Shown here in pieces: positions 1 through 22,142 of a stretch of 41,058 nt of DNA. The notes under the pieces are model-generated. The model saw nothing but the letters and a program-made list of their open reading frames with translations, was not told where the DNA came from and ran no database searches. The translations under genes were made by a program, and so were the position numbers. Origin of the DNA: Gallionella sp. (GTDB lineage Bacteria > Pseudomonadota > Gammaproteobacteria > Burkholderiales > Gallionellaceae); NCBI GenBank assembly GCA_030653355.1, contig JAURZN010000057.1, positions 1 through 41,058 of the forward strand, read 5' to 3'. The first letter of the stretch is position 1. Each line of letters begins with the position of its first letter.

Positions 1-2279
1 GGCAGACCGACACGCTGTGCGAACTGTCCTCCCGCGAATTACTCGACCGGGTTGGTCAGGTGTTTGGCGACAAGGAGGGGCTGGACCGTTCGCAGGAAGC
101 GCGCCAGCTTCGGGCCCACACCGCGCGCGAACTGGATGCGGTGCAAAACCAGCTCGAAGCGCTGGCCAACAGTCTGGAGCGGCACGAGCAAAAAGTGAAT
201 CGCTACCTCGAATGGCATAAGTTGAACGAGGAAAATACCTTGCTGGCCTCTGAAACACGCCCGCGTCTGGAGCATTATTTGCTGCAACAAGAGGCTGCGA
301 GTGCGGCGCACACGCTGCACAGCCTGCGTCGCGACTGGCGCGCAAAACGCGCCGAAAGGCACGCATGGGCACTGGATATACAGGTTGGGCAGCAAACCCT
401 GCAAGCCGCGCAACTGCGCAAACAGGCCGCGCATGAAAATGAACAGGCGCAACAACGCGCGTTGAATGCCCTGAACCGGGAGCTGGGCAACTGGGAAACC
501 GTCGTCAAACAGCATGAACAGTTGCTGCAACAGGCTGCCGACAGCGGCAAGGTGGCCGATGCCCGCGAGCTGGTGCAGCTGGAAAACGAGCGCGACCAGC
601 GGCGTTTACGTATCGCCGAACTGGAGCAGCAGCAGCGCACGCTGGACGAGACGCTGGAAAACCTCGCCGCAGGCCGACGTTCCGATCCCGCCGATGTCGC
701 CGCTTTCCGCCATGCTCTGAGCAGCGCCGGAATCGGACACGACATGCTCACCGATCTGGTGGAAATCATCGACCCTACCTGGCAGGCGGCGGTGGAAGCG
801 GTACTCTCGCCGTTTGCGCATATCGTGCTGCTGGGCAAAGACAAGGATGCAGAGGCCGCTATGGCGCTGGGCGAGAAGCTGCGCTACCGCCATTTCATCG
901 TGCCGGAGCGCACGCAACCCGGCCTGGCACCGCAAGGCTCATTGATGGAAGTGGTGCAGTTTACAAAACCCGTGCCGGAATGGTTGTTGCGCCTGCTGGA
1001 GCGCATACGCCGGGTCGAAGATGTGAATGCCGGGGCCAGATTGCCGCGCGGTGAAGACTGGATCACCCGTCAGGGCTATCTGCGCGAGCGTCGCGGCGGG
1101 CGTTTTGCCGCGCCGGAGCAGGCGCGTTTTGGCAAGGCCAGACTGGAATCCTTGCGACAGCAACGCGCCGACCTGGAAAAAGCCTTGGCTCCGCAACGTC
1201 TGCAACGCGACGAATTGACCACGCGCATCCGCAGTCTGCAGGCGCAACTGGCTGGCGTGAGCGCCAGCGCGCAACTGGCTACGCGCGCGGCGGAATTTGC
1301 CGAGGCACGACAAAATTACGATGTGCTGGTCATCAAACGTCGCGATAACGGCGTGTATCAGGCGCAACAGGACCGCGAACAGGCCGATGAGGCTGTCGTT
1401 GCGGCACAGGGCGCGCTGGAGAAAATCCGCCTGATGATGCAACGTCTGGATAAGGACATTGCGGACAAGGAAAATCGTCCCGCGCGCGAAGAACAGATAC
1501 GACGCCTGCAACGCCTGCGCCATGACAGACAAATGATGCCCGTGGCCTGGCGTGATGCGGCTGCGAATCAGCAAATCGCCGAACTATGGCGTGACAGCAC
1601 CAACATTGAGAGGCGCCAGCACGAAATCGAGACGCGCTTCGCCGATGAATCCTGGGAGACCGATGCCAGTGTAGTGGCCTTGCGCGACAAGATACGCGAC
1701 GACTATCAGCGTCAGGAAAGCGACCTCTCTCTTCGCCGCCGCGACAACGAAATGGCGCGCAGCCAGACCGATGCGGCGCGCGAACAATACATCGCCGTGC
1801 TGCGTTACACCGTCAACCGTTATGTGAAGAATCTCAAGTCGCTGGGCGAGATGGCCGGTATCCGGGTCGAGCACGAACCGGTGATGCTGGCTGGCGACGA
1901 TATTGCGCTGGCGCAGGCAGGCCTGGCGGTGCGTTTCGATTTCGACGAGAAGGGTTTCATGGGCATGAACGATGGCGATGCCTCCGGCGGTCAGCAGGTG
2001 ATGAAATCGCTGGTGTTGCTGGTCGGACTGATGATGGAGGAATCACGTCCCGGCGGCTTCGTGTTCATCGACGAACCGTTCGCGCATCTGGATATCGTCA
2101 ACATCGAACGCGTCGCGTCCTTCCTTAAATCCACCCGCGCGCAATACCTGCTCACCACGCCGGTCACGCACAATGTCAATGTTTATGACCCTTCCATGCT
2201 GACGCTGGTGACTTCCAAGAAACGTGCCGGTGCAATCTGGGCGCCGCGTATCGTGGTGATGGTGCGTGAACGCGACTGA
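1..2279 (+). CDS. SMC-like coiled-coil ATPase, 3' part (JetC/MksB-like)
   Basis: The reading frame is open from base 3, so the start codon and the N-terminal Walker A head lie upstream; the GTG at 60 is only an internal codon. About 760 residues are visible. They run as a charged heptad-rich coiled coil (to about 690), a globular hinge-like segment (about 690-1110), a returning coiled coil (about 1120-1760) and a C-terminal ABC-type head. The head shows an SMC signature loop in the unusual form DASGGQQ (1977-1997), a Walker B motif GGFVFIDEP with a following AHLD D-loop (about 2050-2095), and a TPVTHN switch region. These are SMC/Rad50/MukB-class features. The stop overlaps the next gene by 14 bases. 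That gene encodes a Toprim-fold protein, so a Wadjet (JetC) or MksB role in recognising and removing plasmid DNA is inferred. The architecture is clear; the system assignment is moderate because the kleisin and KITE partners would be upstream. Confidence 0.8.
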   Translation, partial: QTDTLCELSSRELLDRVGQVFGDKEGLDRSQEARQLRAHTARELDAVQNQLEALANSLERHEQKVNRYLEWHKLNEENTLLASETRPRLEHYLLQQEAASAAHTLHSLRRDWRAKRAERHAWALDIQVGQQTLQAAQLRKQAAHENEQAQQRALNALNRELGNWETVVKQHEQLLQQAADSGKVADARELVQLENERDQRRLRIAELEQQQRTLDETLENLAAGRRSDPADVAAFRHALSSAGIGHDMLTDLVEIIDPTWQAAVEAVLSPFAHIVLLGKDKDAEAAMALGEKLRYRHFIVPERTQPGLAPQGSLMEVVQFTKPVPEWLLRLLERIRRVEDVNAGARLPRGEDWITRQGYLRERRGGRFAAPEQARFGKARLESLRQQRADLEKALAPQRLQRDELTTRIRSLQAQLAGVSASAQLATRAAEFAEARQNYDVLVIKRRDNGVYQAQQDREQADEAVVAAQGALEKIRLMMQRLDKDIADKENRPAREEQIRRLQRLRHDRQMMPVAWRDAAANQQIAELWRDSTNIERRQHEIETRFADESWETDASVVALRDKIRDDYQRQESDLSLRRRDNEMARSQTDAAREQYIAVLRYTVNRYVKNLKSLGEMAGIRVEHEPVMLAGDDIALAQAGLAVRFDFDEKGFMGMNDGDASGGQQVMKSLVLLVGLMMEESRPGGFVFIDEPFAHLDIVNIERVASFLKSTRAQYLLTTPVTHNVNVYDPSMLTLVTSKKRAGAIWAPRIVVMVRERD

Positions 2280-3453
2280 TGCCATTCTGATCGAGCCGCT
2301 GGACGGGCGTGCGCTGTGCAAACGCCGCCGTCGCCACCGCGCCGAAACGGCCACGCAACTGGAATTGATCCCGTCCGAATGGCGCGAACTGCTGATACGC
2401 TGGGTGAAACGCGGCGGCAACAGCCGCTACGAAACCCTGCTCAAGGATGCCGGAAAAACCAATCTGGTCATGGCCTCCGCCCTGCTGGAGTGGCTGCTGA
2501 AACAAGGCTGGGCCATCGTTATCGAAGAGCGCAAACTGGGCGAATGGTGGCCGCAATCCGTCGAACTGCGCAATCTGCCGCAGCTGCGCGGCGCTTTGGG
2601 CATCAGCGACCGGGAACAGGAAGCGCTGCGCTGGCAAACTTTGCGCGCGGAGTTGCATGCTCAATGTGGCGACTCGCTCGCCCCTGCCCTGTTAGCCCTT
2701 GACGAACTGCCCGTGCATCGCGCCCTCGCCCGACTCGATCTCATCGCAGCGCTGCAACGCTGGCATGAGGCGCAACAAAGCGGCACCCGCCGTGACTTTG
2801 CGCTGGCGGCGCGCGACGACACCAAAGGCATCAGCGAATCGGAATGGAACTGGCTGGAGCAGACGCTGGATCTGGCGGAATTTCGTATCGAACGTCACAC
2901 GCCCCTGCTGCTGATTTCGGCCACGTTGACCCTGAATCTGCCGCAGGGAGAACTCGATCTGGTCGCTTGTGCCGATTTTGCCGCGTTGACCCCTGTCACG
3001 CTGAAAAGCATTACGGCTGTTTCAGGAACGCTCAGATGCTGGCAACTGGTCGAGAACCGCACCAGCTTCGAGCGTGTCGCCCGAAAACGTGCGCCCGATG
3101 TCGGTGTGATCTGGCTGCCCGGCTATCCGCCGGGCTGGTGGTGCAATGCCGTCAGACGATTGCTGCTGCTCGCCCCTGCCCCGGCGCATATCGCCTGCGA
3201 CCCCGATCCCGCCGGAATCGCCATCGCCCTTAAAGCCGCAGAACTCTGGCAGGAACGAAGACTCGACTGGCTGCCGTGGAAAATGTCGGCGGGTGATCTG
3301 GCTGACTTGCGGGTGCGCAAGCCGCTGAGCGAGGTCGACAGGCTGCAACTCGCCGCGTTGCAAAAAGAGCATGTCCTGCCCGCCCCGCTGGCCGAACTGG
3401 CGGCATGGATGCTGGAACATGGGGAAAAAGGAGAACAGGAAGGGTTTATATAA
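2266..3453 (+). CDS. Toprim-fold protein, JetD/MksG-like putative nuclease
   Basis: A 395-residue protein starting at GTG 2266, inside the end of the SMC gene, which implies translational coupling. The N-terminal half is basic and helical and was not recognised. The C-terminal third has the layout of a DUF2220/DUF2399-type Toprim domain: a glutamate in an ENRTSF motif (E263), a hydrophobic strand ending VIWLPGYPPG, then DPDPAGIAIA (D312, D314), which matches the Toprim DxD followed by a small-residue helix. In Wadjet systems JetD is the topoisomerase VI-like subunit that cleaves DNA after the SMC complex has extruded a loop. Position, overlap and motif agree with that role. The protein is similar in size to known JetD proteins. 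The N-terminus resembles no domain I can name, so this may be a divergent subtype. An alternative is a Toprim protein of the TIGR02679 kind. Confidence 0.6.
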   Translation: MNATDAILIEPLDGRALCKRRRRHRAETATQLELIPSEWRELLIRWVKRGGNSRYETLLKDAGKTNLVMASALLEWLLKQGWAIVIEERKLGEWWPQSVELRNLPQLRGALGISDREQEALRWQTLRAELHAQCGDSLAPALLALDELPVHRALARLDLIAALQRWHEAQQSGTRRDFALAARDDTKGISESEWNWLEQTLDLAEFRIERHTPLLLISATLTLNLPQGELDLVACADFAALTPVTLKSITAVSGTLRCWQLVENRTSFERVARKRAPDVGVIWLPGYPPGWWCNAVRRLLLLAPAPAHIACDPDPAGIAIALKAAELWQERRLDWLPWKMSAGDLADLRVRKPLSEVDRLQLAALQKEHVLPAPLAELAAWMLEHGEKGEQEGFI

Positions 3454-17546: not shown

Positions 17547-17864
17547 CTACGCCTTGCTGTAAATTTCCACCCCGACACGATCGATATGCGCGATCAATTC
17601 TCTGTTAGCTATCTGACGATATTGTGACAAGTCCACGGTGTAAGGCAGCATCAAGTCATCGATTTGATCTTCGATTTGCATGAGTTCTGCAAACTGAATC
17701 TCATCTCCCTTGATGGTCAGGTCAATATCTGACCCAGCACGGTAGTTGCCTTTGGCACGCGAGCCGTAGATCAATACGGCGTGGATGACGTTATGCCGTG
17801 CAAAAACGCTCCTGAGTTTATCCAGCGTCGCCGCAGACAGGCCAAATGACGGCGTCGTGCTCAT
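17547..17864 (-). CDS. mntA: MNT nucleotidyltransferase antitoxin
   Basis: A 105-residue minimal nucleotidyltransferase. The catalytic motif is complete: YGSRAKGNYRAGSDIDL, i.e. GS, ten residues, then DxD (about residues 34-48). In characterised HepT/MntA pairs this protein AMPylates a tyrosine of the HEPN toxin and silences it. It overlaps the HEPN gene by four bases and is downstream of it, the usual order. Small size and pairing make this function likely, although some such pairs are unproven as toxin-antitoxin systems. Confidence 0.85.
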   Translation of the reverse strand: MSTTPSFGLSAATLDKLRSVFARHNVIHAVLIYGSRAKGNYRAGSDIDLTIKGDEIQFAELMQIEDQIDDLMLPYTVDLSQYRQIANRELIAHIDRVGVEIYSKA

Positions 17865-18274
17865 GAGAGGTATTCTTCCATTTCTGTTTGCAGTGCGACA
17901 AACAGCGGAAAGTAAGACCCGATGATGACACTCACCAATTGTTCTGCCGTGTGTTCATCATAGGTATGCGATGAGATATTCCGGCTTTGTATCATCGCCA
18001 TCCACTGTTCGCCGTCAGCAATGAGCTCTACCTTGAAGGCTTCTCGTGTGGCATCTTTTGATCCTCTGATGTTCTGGTTGCCCTGATCCTGCAAATAATC
18101 CTTCAACACATTCCATGCCAATTCATGTGTAAACTCAAAGGCTTGAATAACCCCCTGCTTTTCCAGATTTGAGAGTTTGCGCTGTTCGCTCAATTCAACG
18201 GCACTGCGCAATTGCAGCAGGGCTTTTTGAAAATTGGCAAATCGCTGTTGCCAGCGTATATCGCTATCGTTCAT
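17861..18274 (-). CDS. hepT: HEPN-domain toxin (HepT)
   Basis: A 137-residue all-helical protein of the HI0074/HEPN substrate-binding class. The ribonuclease motif R-x4-H-x-Y is intact as RNISSHTY (about residues 98-105), where the Tyr is the expected target of AMPylation by MntA. Other family landmarks are FEFTHELAWNVLKDYL and the helix-rich C-terminus ending EMEEYLS. It is the first gene of the pair; no clear promoter was seen in the 110 bases upstream, which also hold the typA terminator. Because the motif is complete, the toxin is expected to be active. Confidence 0.85.
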   Translation of the reverse strand: MNDSDIRWQQRFANFQKALLQLRSAVELSEQRKLSNLEKQGVIQAFEFTHELAWNVLKDYLQDQGNQNIRGSKDATREAFKVELIADGEQWMAMIQSRNISSHTYDEHTAEQLVSVIIGSYFPLFVALQTEMEEYLS

Positions 18275-20269: not shown

Positions 20270-21292
20270 CTAAATCCTGTTTTGATACCAGTCGCGCGAG
20301 CGGTTTGCTACGCTCACCACCGCCAGCATGAGCGGCACTTCTATCAGCACGCCAACCACGGTAGCCAGCGCAGCACCCGACTGGAAACCGAACAGGCTGA
20401 TCGCCGTGGCTACCGCCAGCTCAAAGAAATTACTCGCGGCGATCAATGCGGACGGCGCGGCAACGCAGTGCGCCACGCCCAGGCGTCGATTCAGCCAGTA
20501 GGCAAGGCCGGAGTTCAGTATGACTTGTATCATGATAGGCACGGCCAGTATGGCAATCACCAGCGGCTGTGCGACGATGGCCTCGCCCTGCAGGGCGAAC
20601 AGCAGCACCAGCGTCAGCAGCAGTGCGGCTATCGAGTACGGCCCTGTGCGCTTCAGACCGCGTGCAAACGCAGCCTCCCCTTTCCTCAGCATCCGGCGAC
20701 GCAGCCACTGTGCGATGACCACCGGAATCACGATATAGAACAGCACCGAGACGAGCAAGGTGGCCCACGGCACGGCAATACTGGCAATGCCGAGCAGCAA
20801 TCCGACCAGAGGCGCAAAGGCGAAGATCATGATGACATCATTGAGCGCCACCTGCGACAAAGTGAAATAGGGATCGCCCTTCACCAGATTGCTCCAGACA
20901 AAGACCATGGCGGTACAGGGGGCGGCAGCCAGCAGGATCAGGCCTGCGATATAACTGTCAAGTTGCTCAGGCGGAAGATAGTCGGCGAACACATGGCGGA
21001 TGAACAGCCAGGCCAGCAAGGCCATCGAGAAAGGCTTGATTGCCCAGTTGACAAACAGGGTGACGCCGATGCCGCGCACATGCTGCTTGACCTGATAAAG
21101 CGCGGTGTAGTCTATGCGCAACAGCATGGGAATAATCATCACCCATACCAGCACACCGACGGGAACATTGACTTCAGCAAGTTTCAGACCGGCGATACCC
21201 TGAAATAAGGCAGGAAAAAACTGCCCCAGCAGCACACCGGCAATGATGCACAGCAAGACCCAAAGCGTCAGATAGCGTTCAAACAGATTCAT
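20270..21292 (-). CDS. acr3: Arsenite efflux permease, ACR3 family
   Basis: Exports arsenite (and possibly antimonite) across the inner membrane using the proton motive force. Starting at ATG 21292 it has about 340 residues and ten predicted transmembrane helices. The conserved cysteine of TM4 is seen in [14 protein letters not shown], and the later [12 protein letters not shown] and [10 protein letters not shown] segments hold the conserved glutamates. The frame extends to 21325 but would overlap arsC by 29 bases, so the start four bases after the arsC stop is preferred. It is last in an arsR-arsC-acr3 operon. Confidence 0.93.
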
Positions 21293-21296
21293 CGCT

Positions 21297-21794
21297 TCAG
21301 TCCGGTATTTGCCCGATTTCGGCAAGCTTTTCTTTCAGTGTCAGCTTGTCCAATTTATCAATCGGCAGACTCATAAATAATTGAATACGCCGCGCCAATT
21401 GCGCATAGGCGGTGTTGAATGCGGCGCGACGCGCTTCTTCGCCCTCGACGTGCGCCGGATCGGGGATGCCCCAGTGCGCGGTAGCAGGCTTGCCCGGCCA
21501 GATCGGGCAGGTTTCACCGGCGGCGTTGTCGCACACGGTAAAGATGAAGTCGATTTCTGGCGCGCCGGGAGCGGCGAATTCGTCCCAGCTCTTGCTGCGT
21601 AATCCCGTAATGTCGTGCCCCTGTTGCTGCAACAATTCCAGAGCCGCCGGATTAACGCGTCCGACCGGTTTGCTGCCTGCGCTGTGGGCGATGAATTCAC
21701 CCTTGCCCAGCACGTTGAATAACACTTCGCCCAGAATGCTGCGCGCGGAATTGCCGGTACATAACACCAGCACGTTGTATGGCTTGATACTCAT
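21297..21794 (-). CDS. arsC: Arsenate reductase, low-molecular-weight phosphatase type
   Basis: Reduces arsenate to arsenite for export by the adjacent ACR3 pump. The 165-residue protein has the phosphatase-like P-loop VLCTGNSARSILGE near the N-terminus (Cx5R), and FTVCDNAAGETCPIWPG supplies the further redox cysteines used with thioredoxin or glutaredoxin. It matches the ArsC class found with ACR3 and ArsR in proteobacteria, not the glutaredoxin-dependent E. coli plasmid class. It starts 24 bases after arsR. Confidence 0.93.
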   Translation of the reverse strand: MSIKPYNVLVLCTGNSARSILGEVLFNVLGKGEFIAHSAGSKPVGRVNPAALELLQQQGHDITGLRSKSWDEFAAPGAPEIDFIFTVCDNAAGETCPIWPGKPATAHWGIPDPAHVEGEEARRAAFNTAYAQLARRIQLFMSLPIDKLDKLTLKEKLAEIGQIPD

Positions 21795-21818
21795 CTTGCG
21801 ACCTCTTGTATGGGTTGA

Positions 21819-22142
21819 TTAACATTTTTGGGATGGAATCGCGCAGTCTTGCGGATTTCCAGCGCAACAATTTTCCGTAAGGTAGGCCAGCATCCCATTC
21901 ATCACGGTGAAATTTGCCGCGTAATAGACAAACCGCCCCTCCTGTCTGCTGGTTATCAATCCGGCGTGACTCAGCGCCTTAAAGTGAAATGACATGTTCG
22001 CCGGTGATACTTTCATCCTTTCGGCCAGTTTCCCCGCCGCCATTCCCTCCGGCCCGCACGCCACCAGCAGACGGTATATCTCCAGTCGCGTGTGTTGCGC
22101 CAAAGCCGACAGTGCTTCCACTACCTGTGTCGATGTAAGCAT
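21819..22142 (-). CDS. arsR: ArsR/SmtB-family arsenic-responsive repressor
   Basis: A 107-residue winged-helix repressor, first in the ars operon. The helix-turn-helix is KVSPANMSFHFKALSHAGLI (about residues 44-63), followed by the wing SRQEGRFVYY. The usual ELCVC metal site of the plasmid type is absent; instead cysteines cluster at the C-terminus (C92, C93, C100, C107), close to the arrangement used by the Acidithiobacillus ferrooxidans ArsR. Autorepression and release by arsenite are expected from the family. The upstream gap to HU contains AT-rich candidate operator sequence. Confidence 0.9.
   Translation of the reverse strand: MLTSTQVVEALSALAQHTRLEIYRLLVACGPEGMAAGKLAERMKVSPANMSFHFKALSHAGLITSRQEGRFVYYAANFTVMNGMLAYLTENCCAGNPQDCAIPSQKC

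Follow-up and report, generated by a model that had tools for sequence, protein, structure and literature searches.

A divergent Wadjet-like SMC and Toprim nuclease gene pair in Gallionella sp., and its relatives with and without the nuclease

What is the work of an SMC-type ATPase gene that runs directly into a Toprim nuclease gene at the broken end of a Gallionella sp. contig, and is the nuclease a lasting part of the system? The window, by which we mean the whole stretch of 41,058 nucleotides of contig JAURZN010000057.1 (assembly GCA_030653355.1), has the first base of the contig (G000:C114) as its base 1, opens inside the SMC gene, here called C, and continues with the nuclease gene, called D. 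A preliminary description took the two for a divergent pair of the JetC-JetD or MksB-MksG kind, and the best PADLOC matches, JetC1 for C and JetD1 for D (1.5e-10), support that view. We consider it likely that they belong to a Wadjet/MksBEFG-like four-gene complex, in which a loop-extruding motor would be coupled to a circle-cutting nuclease, and that C and D would be the final two genes of an operon encoding a kleisin (A), a KITE protein (B), the SMC protein (C) and the nuclease (D).

Gene C (3..2279, forward strand, 758 codons) encodes a JetC/MksB-like SMC ATPase with homologues in relatives, and its 5′ part is lost at the contig end: the fragment corresponds to residues 162 onward of a 924-aa protein from locus L024, so that the first ~161 residues, including Walker A, which is present in relatives, are missing. 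The hinge domain described earlier lies at 738..1040 (residues 246-346) with a sub-threshold match to PF06470 (E-value 3.5e-4, 21.4 bits against a cut-off of 22.5), and SMC_N is likewise below its cut-off on the fragment (E-value 5.7e-8, 32.9 bits against 40). The full-length L024 protein passes SMC_N (61.2 bits) and narrowly misses the hinge cut-off (22.1 bits). The ABC signature loop DASGGQQ (1977..1997) and the Walker B motif VFIDEPFAHLD (2061..2093), both read in the sequence, were found as first reported; all 77 labelled C rows have the former as [DE]ASGGQQ and the latter unchanged. In the 49 labelled rows from loci lacking D, Walker A and Walker B are intact without exception, Walker A reading GPNGSGKTT in 41 and GQNGSGKTT in eight. 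With a hinge just below the cut-off and intact ATPase motifs, C resembles a JetC-like SMC, in a match that is partly generic to SMC proteins; the MukB N-terminal domain PF04310 reached only 12.9 bits on the L024 protein (cut-off 23), and the Smc equivalog TIGR02168 only 63.1 bits on the incomplete window C (cut-off 567).

Gene D (2266..3453, forward strand, GTG start) overlaps the C frame by 14 bases, as it does in L020 and L024, and encodes a 395-residue JetD/MksG-like protein with winged-helix, CAP and Toprim regions, recognised by alignment and structure comparison as well as by PADLOC. The winged-helix-like N-terminal region spans residues 26-118 (2341..2619) and the Toprim region approximately residues 245-395 (2998..3450). 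Both the overlap and the acidic triad had been noticed earlier, and the triad is invariant in a 17-row alignment; a larger alignment has 30 rows, 28 of them readable at these sites, and all 28 have E263 (3052..3054) while 27 have the DxD of D312 and D314 (3199..3207). The sole exception, L143 (G687), carries H at the position of the second aspartate, and by its sequence may encode an inactivated nuclease. A C-terminal EQE motif (E390-E392, 3433..3441) is, by alignment, like the LEQE of Wadjet type I JetD, and the counterpart cited for it in PMC10123090 is MksG E349/E351. A structure prediction, which had been proposed for the Toprim region, gave a model of D with a mean predicted local distance difference test score of 70.7 that matches Top6A, Spo11, MksG and JetD, and that aligns with Corynebacterium glutamicum MksG and Pseudomonas aeruginosa JetD over most of its length, the root mean square deviation being large. 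The likely fold, as modelled, is CAP plus Toprim of the JetD/MksG type. The unfamiliar N-terminus had been taken as a sign of divergence; the pair is indeed divergent, but when the model is set against MksG and JetD the N-terminus shows no apparent new fold. No invariant or near-invariant tyrosine that could be catalytic was found in the D alignment (A9), in which D differs from Spo11 and the topoisomerase VI A subunit; its operon partner is moreover an SMC protein rather than a topoisomerase VI B subunit. Of the profile searches suggested at the outset, those with JetC1 and JetD1 gave matches, while DUF2399 remained sub-threshold on D (residues 259-395, 22.4 bits against 23.4) and NCBIfam, TIGR02679 included, gave no match for D.

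Since the contig ends inside C, the four-gene order could be seen in relatives only. In the nearest named ones the genes, often overlapping, follow in the order A (~420 aa), B (~220 aa), C (~921 aa) and D (~395 aa), and order, sizes and, weakly, fold fit a kleisin, a KITE protein, an SMC protein and a JetD/MksG-type nuclease, which for A and B hints at these identities. The expectation that equivalents of JetA and JetB lie upstream therefore held for relatives, which carry genes of kleisin and KITE size, but a profile search for A of the window's whole genome, an incomplete assembly (2.6 Mb, 224 contigs, 89% complete) in which B was not searched, gave no match; the genes upstream of C are probably in unassembled sequence. 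No JetA model (PF11855 or PADLOC JetA) matched any of 20 A members, the best direct comparison giving 3.2e-3. B matched PF13835 (DUF4194, JetB) weakly in five of 20 members (best 5.1e-4), PADLOC JetB3 in three (best 0.023) and JetB1 in one. The generic matches of C to AAA_21 and SbcC_Walker_B could point instead to a DNA-repair pair like Rad50/SbcC or RecN, without relation to condensins, and an ordinary repair system was the outcome that the preliminary description named as counting against it. This is very improbable, given the SMC-type hinge match in C, the kleisin- and KITE-sized A and B genes conserved in complete operons, and a D fold like those of Top6A, MksG and JetD.

A relationship of C and D to Wadjet type I is detectable by sequence, and the operon shares with that type the order kleisin-KITE-SMC-nuclease and the nuclease motifs E, DxD and (L/G)EQE. 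It differs in an A without a JetA/DUF3375 match, in a B that barely matches DUF4194, and in a C of mostly ~920-955 aa against 1115-1162 aa in eight reference JetC proteins. The signature loop, earlier called atypical, is so: all eight references have KSGGEK, KSGGQK or LSGGQ in its place. Because A lacks the JetA match, we place the system beside the modelled Wadjet types, as their relative, and not among them. Type III, of which we take TIGR02677-TIGR02680 to be the models, differs in that D stays under the TIGR02679 and DUF2399 cut-offs. As for the C. glutamicum MksBEFG system, it is matched by PF11855 whereas A is not, and D shows no conserved equivalent of Y258, a tyrosine important in that system's MksG. 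Following what is described for Wadjet and MksBEFG, the A-B-C motor would extrude DNA loops at the expense of ATP, would travel completely around a small circular DNA and stall, and would then activate a D dimer whose Toprim sites would cleave the circle, leading to plasmid loss. Restriction of plasmids would be the most likely activity of such a complex.

How regularly the nuclease accompanies the motor was examined in the order sampled, which we take to be Burkholderiales of GTDB. A was matched in 62 of 399 genomes, two of which failed on inspection, and in the remaining 60 B always adjoins A and C is present in 59. D stands beside C in 12 of the 60 (one a partial D at a contig end) and is clearly absent from 46, where no D lies in the 1.6 kb or more that follow C, which is a further difference from Wadjet type I; the other two were not scored for D, owing to masked sequence (L080) and a missing C (L132). 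Among 158 genomes of the Gallionella family, 18 carry A and 16 carry D: 13 have the two together, five have A without D and three D without A; the D-alone genomes (the window's, G033 and G075) are all cut at contig ends, and the D-less cases are few, some of them fragmentary. In samples of the class, D occurs in three genomes of 369, one of these being the window's, A in three of 340, two of them marginal, and type I JetA (PF11855) in 13 of 143, 12 over the cut-off. A whole-genome search recovered D in all 15 genomes where its presence was established, and in none of 50 genomes with A but no D beside C (48 clear, two not scorable) or of 15 taken as A-less. Within the searched material, every intact D stood next to A-B-C, complete or truncated; D appears to depend on A-B-C, not vice versa. 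Of 44 A-carrying genomes, among which the window's own (with ScpA at G000:C53) is counted through its C and D, 43 have ScpA, as do 35 of 36 taken as A-less, so that A-B-C is an additional SMC complex.

Several incomplete copies were also observed. Shortened D frames with no adjoining C, probable remnants, occur in Methyloversatilis (L027:9944-10555, 203 aa) and on a Diaphorobacter plasmid (L029:1075-1734, 219 aa), and two large Variovorax plasmid records (L028:10471-18204 and L030:8976-16709) carry a shortened C beside an IS1071 transposase, followed by D and xseA/xseB. In L174 (G185:C71), from a genome outside the order, A and D are in broken pieces of a decaying operon copy. The single-contig genome G154 has two A-B-C operons: one (L034) includes D and has a Mu-type transposase close by, and the other (L094) lacks D and stands between a prfB-like and a lysS-like gene.

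In a quick tree of 79 C proteins (28 with D, 49 without and two unlabelled), which drew long-branch warnings, the state of D requires seven changes, five of them forced by well-supported branches; a more careful tree, built from 39 of the rows, likewise requires seven (6-8 in bootstraps), six forced, or six changes without L157. It is most likely that the lineage repeatedly switches between nuclease-armed and unarmed forms. Such counts fit gain and loss alike, and D could have been acquired on several occasions by an A-B-C condensin whose ancestral state was unarmed, a history compatible with the Wadjet/MksBEFG-like reading. The much diverged D of L157-L159 and L161, which keeps E, DxD and EQE and whose branch in the D tree is very long, is possibly such a separate acquisition. 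Overall, however, D follows the C phylogeny, with a correlation of D and C identities of 0.96 (27 loci, 351 pairs), which favours loss from an armed ancestor, and in L074 and L094-L096 the end of C and the leader of the synthetase gene align with D-carrying relatives on both sides of the missing D, with at most ~115 unaligned bases between. In the close pair L036/L094, C is 97% identical and D is present in one and cleanly absent from the other, before the same downstream gene. Repeated gain is the less probable course, though by no means far-fetched. Whether we are dealing with a Wadjet-type lineage outside the modelled types and centred on the order, its nuclease repeatedly lost and its SMC motor kept under selection, seems to us evenly balanced.

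A-B-C without D is under purifying selection, the ratio of nonsynonymous to synonymous substitution rates (dN/dS) of A, B and C being 0.011-0.206 in the nine of ten D-less pairs for which it could be computed. Since D is absent beside C from most A-carrying genomes of the order and A-B-C is nonetheless conserved, the core probably has a job independent of D. The selection on the D-less core would suit a complex that is mainly an MksBEF-like organiser of the chromosome or replicon, D being an accessory akin to topoisomerase VI that would resolve entangled DNA, or cut it, at segregation rather than a defence effector. The setting among chromosomal core genes would suit it too, with a prfB-like release-factor gene upstream of A in L020, L022, L026 and L094, the Gallionella-family loci tested, and a lysS-like gene (class II lysine-type tRNA synthetase) downstream of the operon in L026, L033, L074 and L094. 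According to PMC7485682, P. aeruginosa MksBEF acts in chromosome segregation as an accessory condensin beside Smc-ScpAB, and several MksBEF families exist; the D-less form resembles it, as there described, in being an accessory SMC complex beside Smc-ScpAB, and differs in the rarity of A, whose profile matched so few of the sampled class genomes. Against this explanation, D is missing from many loci, D evolves faster (dN/dS 0.073-0.222 in seven D-carrying pairs) than C in all seven and than B in five, the want of a conserved tyrosine makes strand religation unlikely, and Smc-ScpAB is present anyway. We hold this organiser explanation unlikely and retain the plasmid-cutting one as likely; the unarmed A-B-C is probably an accessory condensin.

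Among neighbouring genes, an ATPase and a 195-aa protein directly before A in L033 (L033:2955-4792) match HEC-01A and HEC-01B (PADLOC, 1.6e-90 and 8.8e-42), a small hint of a defence setting, at a site that may also collect defence genes. By reading alone, glgA lies downstream of the operon in the window and in L022, and the rest of the window includes an MNT/HEPN toxin-antitoxin-like pair (17547-18274, a small nucleotidyltransferase-like gene and an adjoining HEPN-like gene), an arsenic-resistance-like cluster (20270-22142) of transporter, arsenate-reductase-like and ArsR-like genes, and an RHS-repeat-like frame that runs off the contig end (39354-41057).

New here is an A-B-C lineage in which D is present in few and absent from most loci of the order, with the motor kept. 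It also exposes a gap: PADLOC-DB has no match for A and no convincing one for B, so that annotation of the PADLOC type would largely overlook the system. Close pairs with and without D make it testable what an SMC complex does after its nuclease is gone. If our reading is true, these loci would be extant stages of the transition that has been proposed to turn a DNA-immunity machine into a housekeeping condensin, from Wadjet to MksBEF, and among them are close pairs whose members differ in a single gene, cleanly missing from one of the two.
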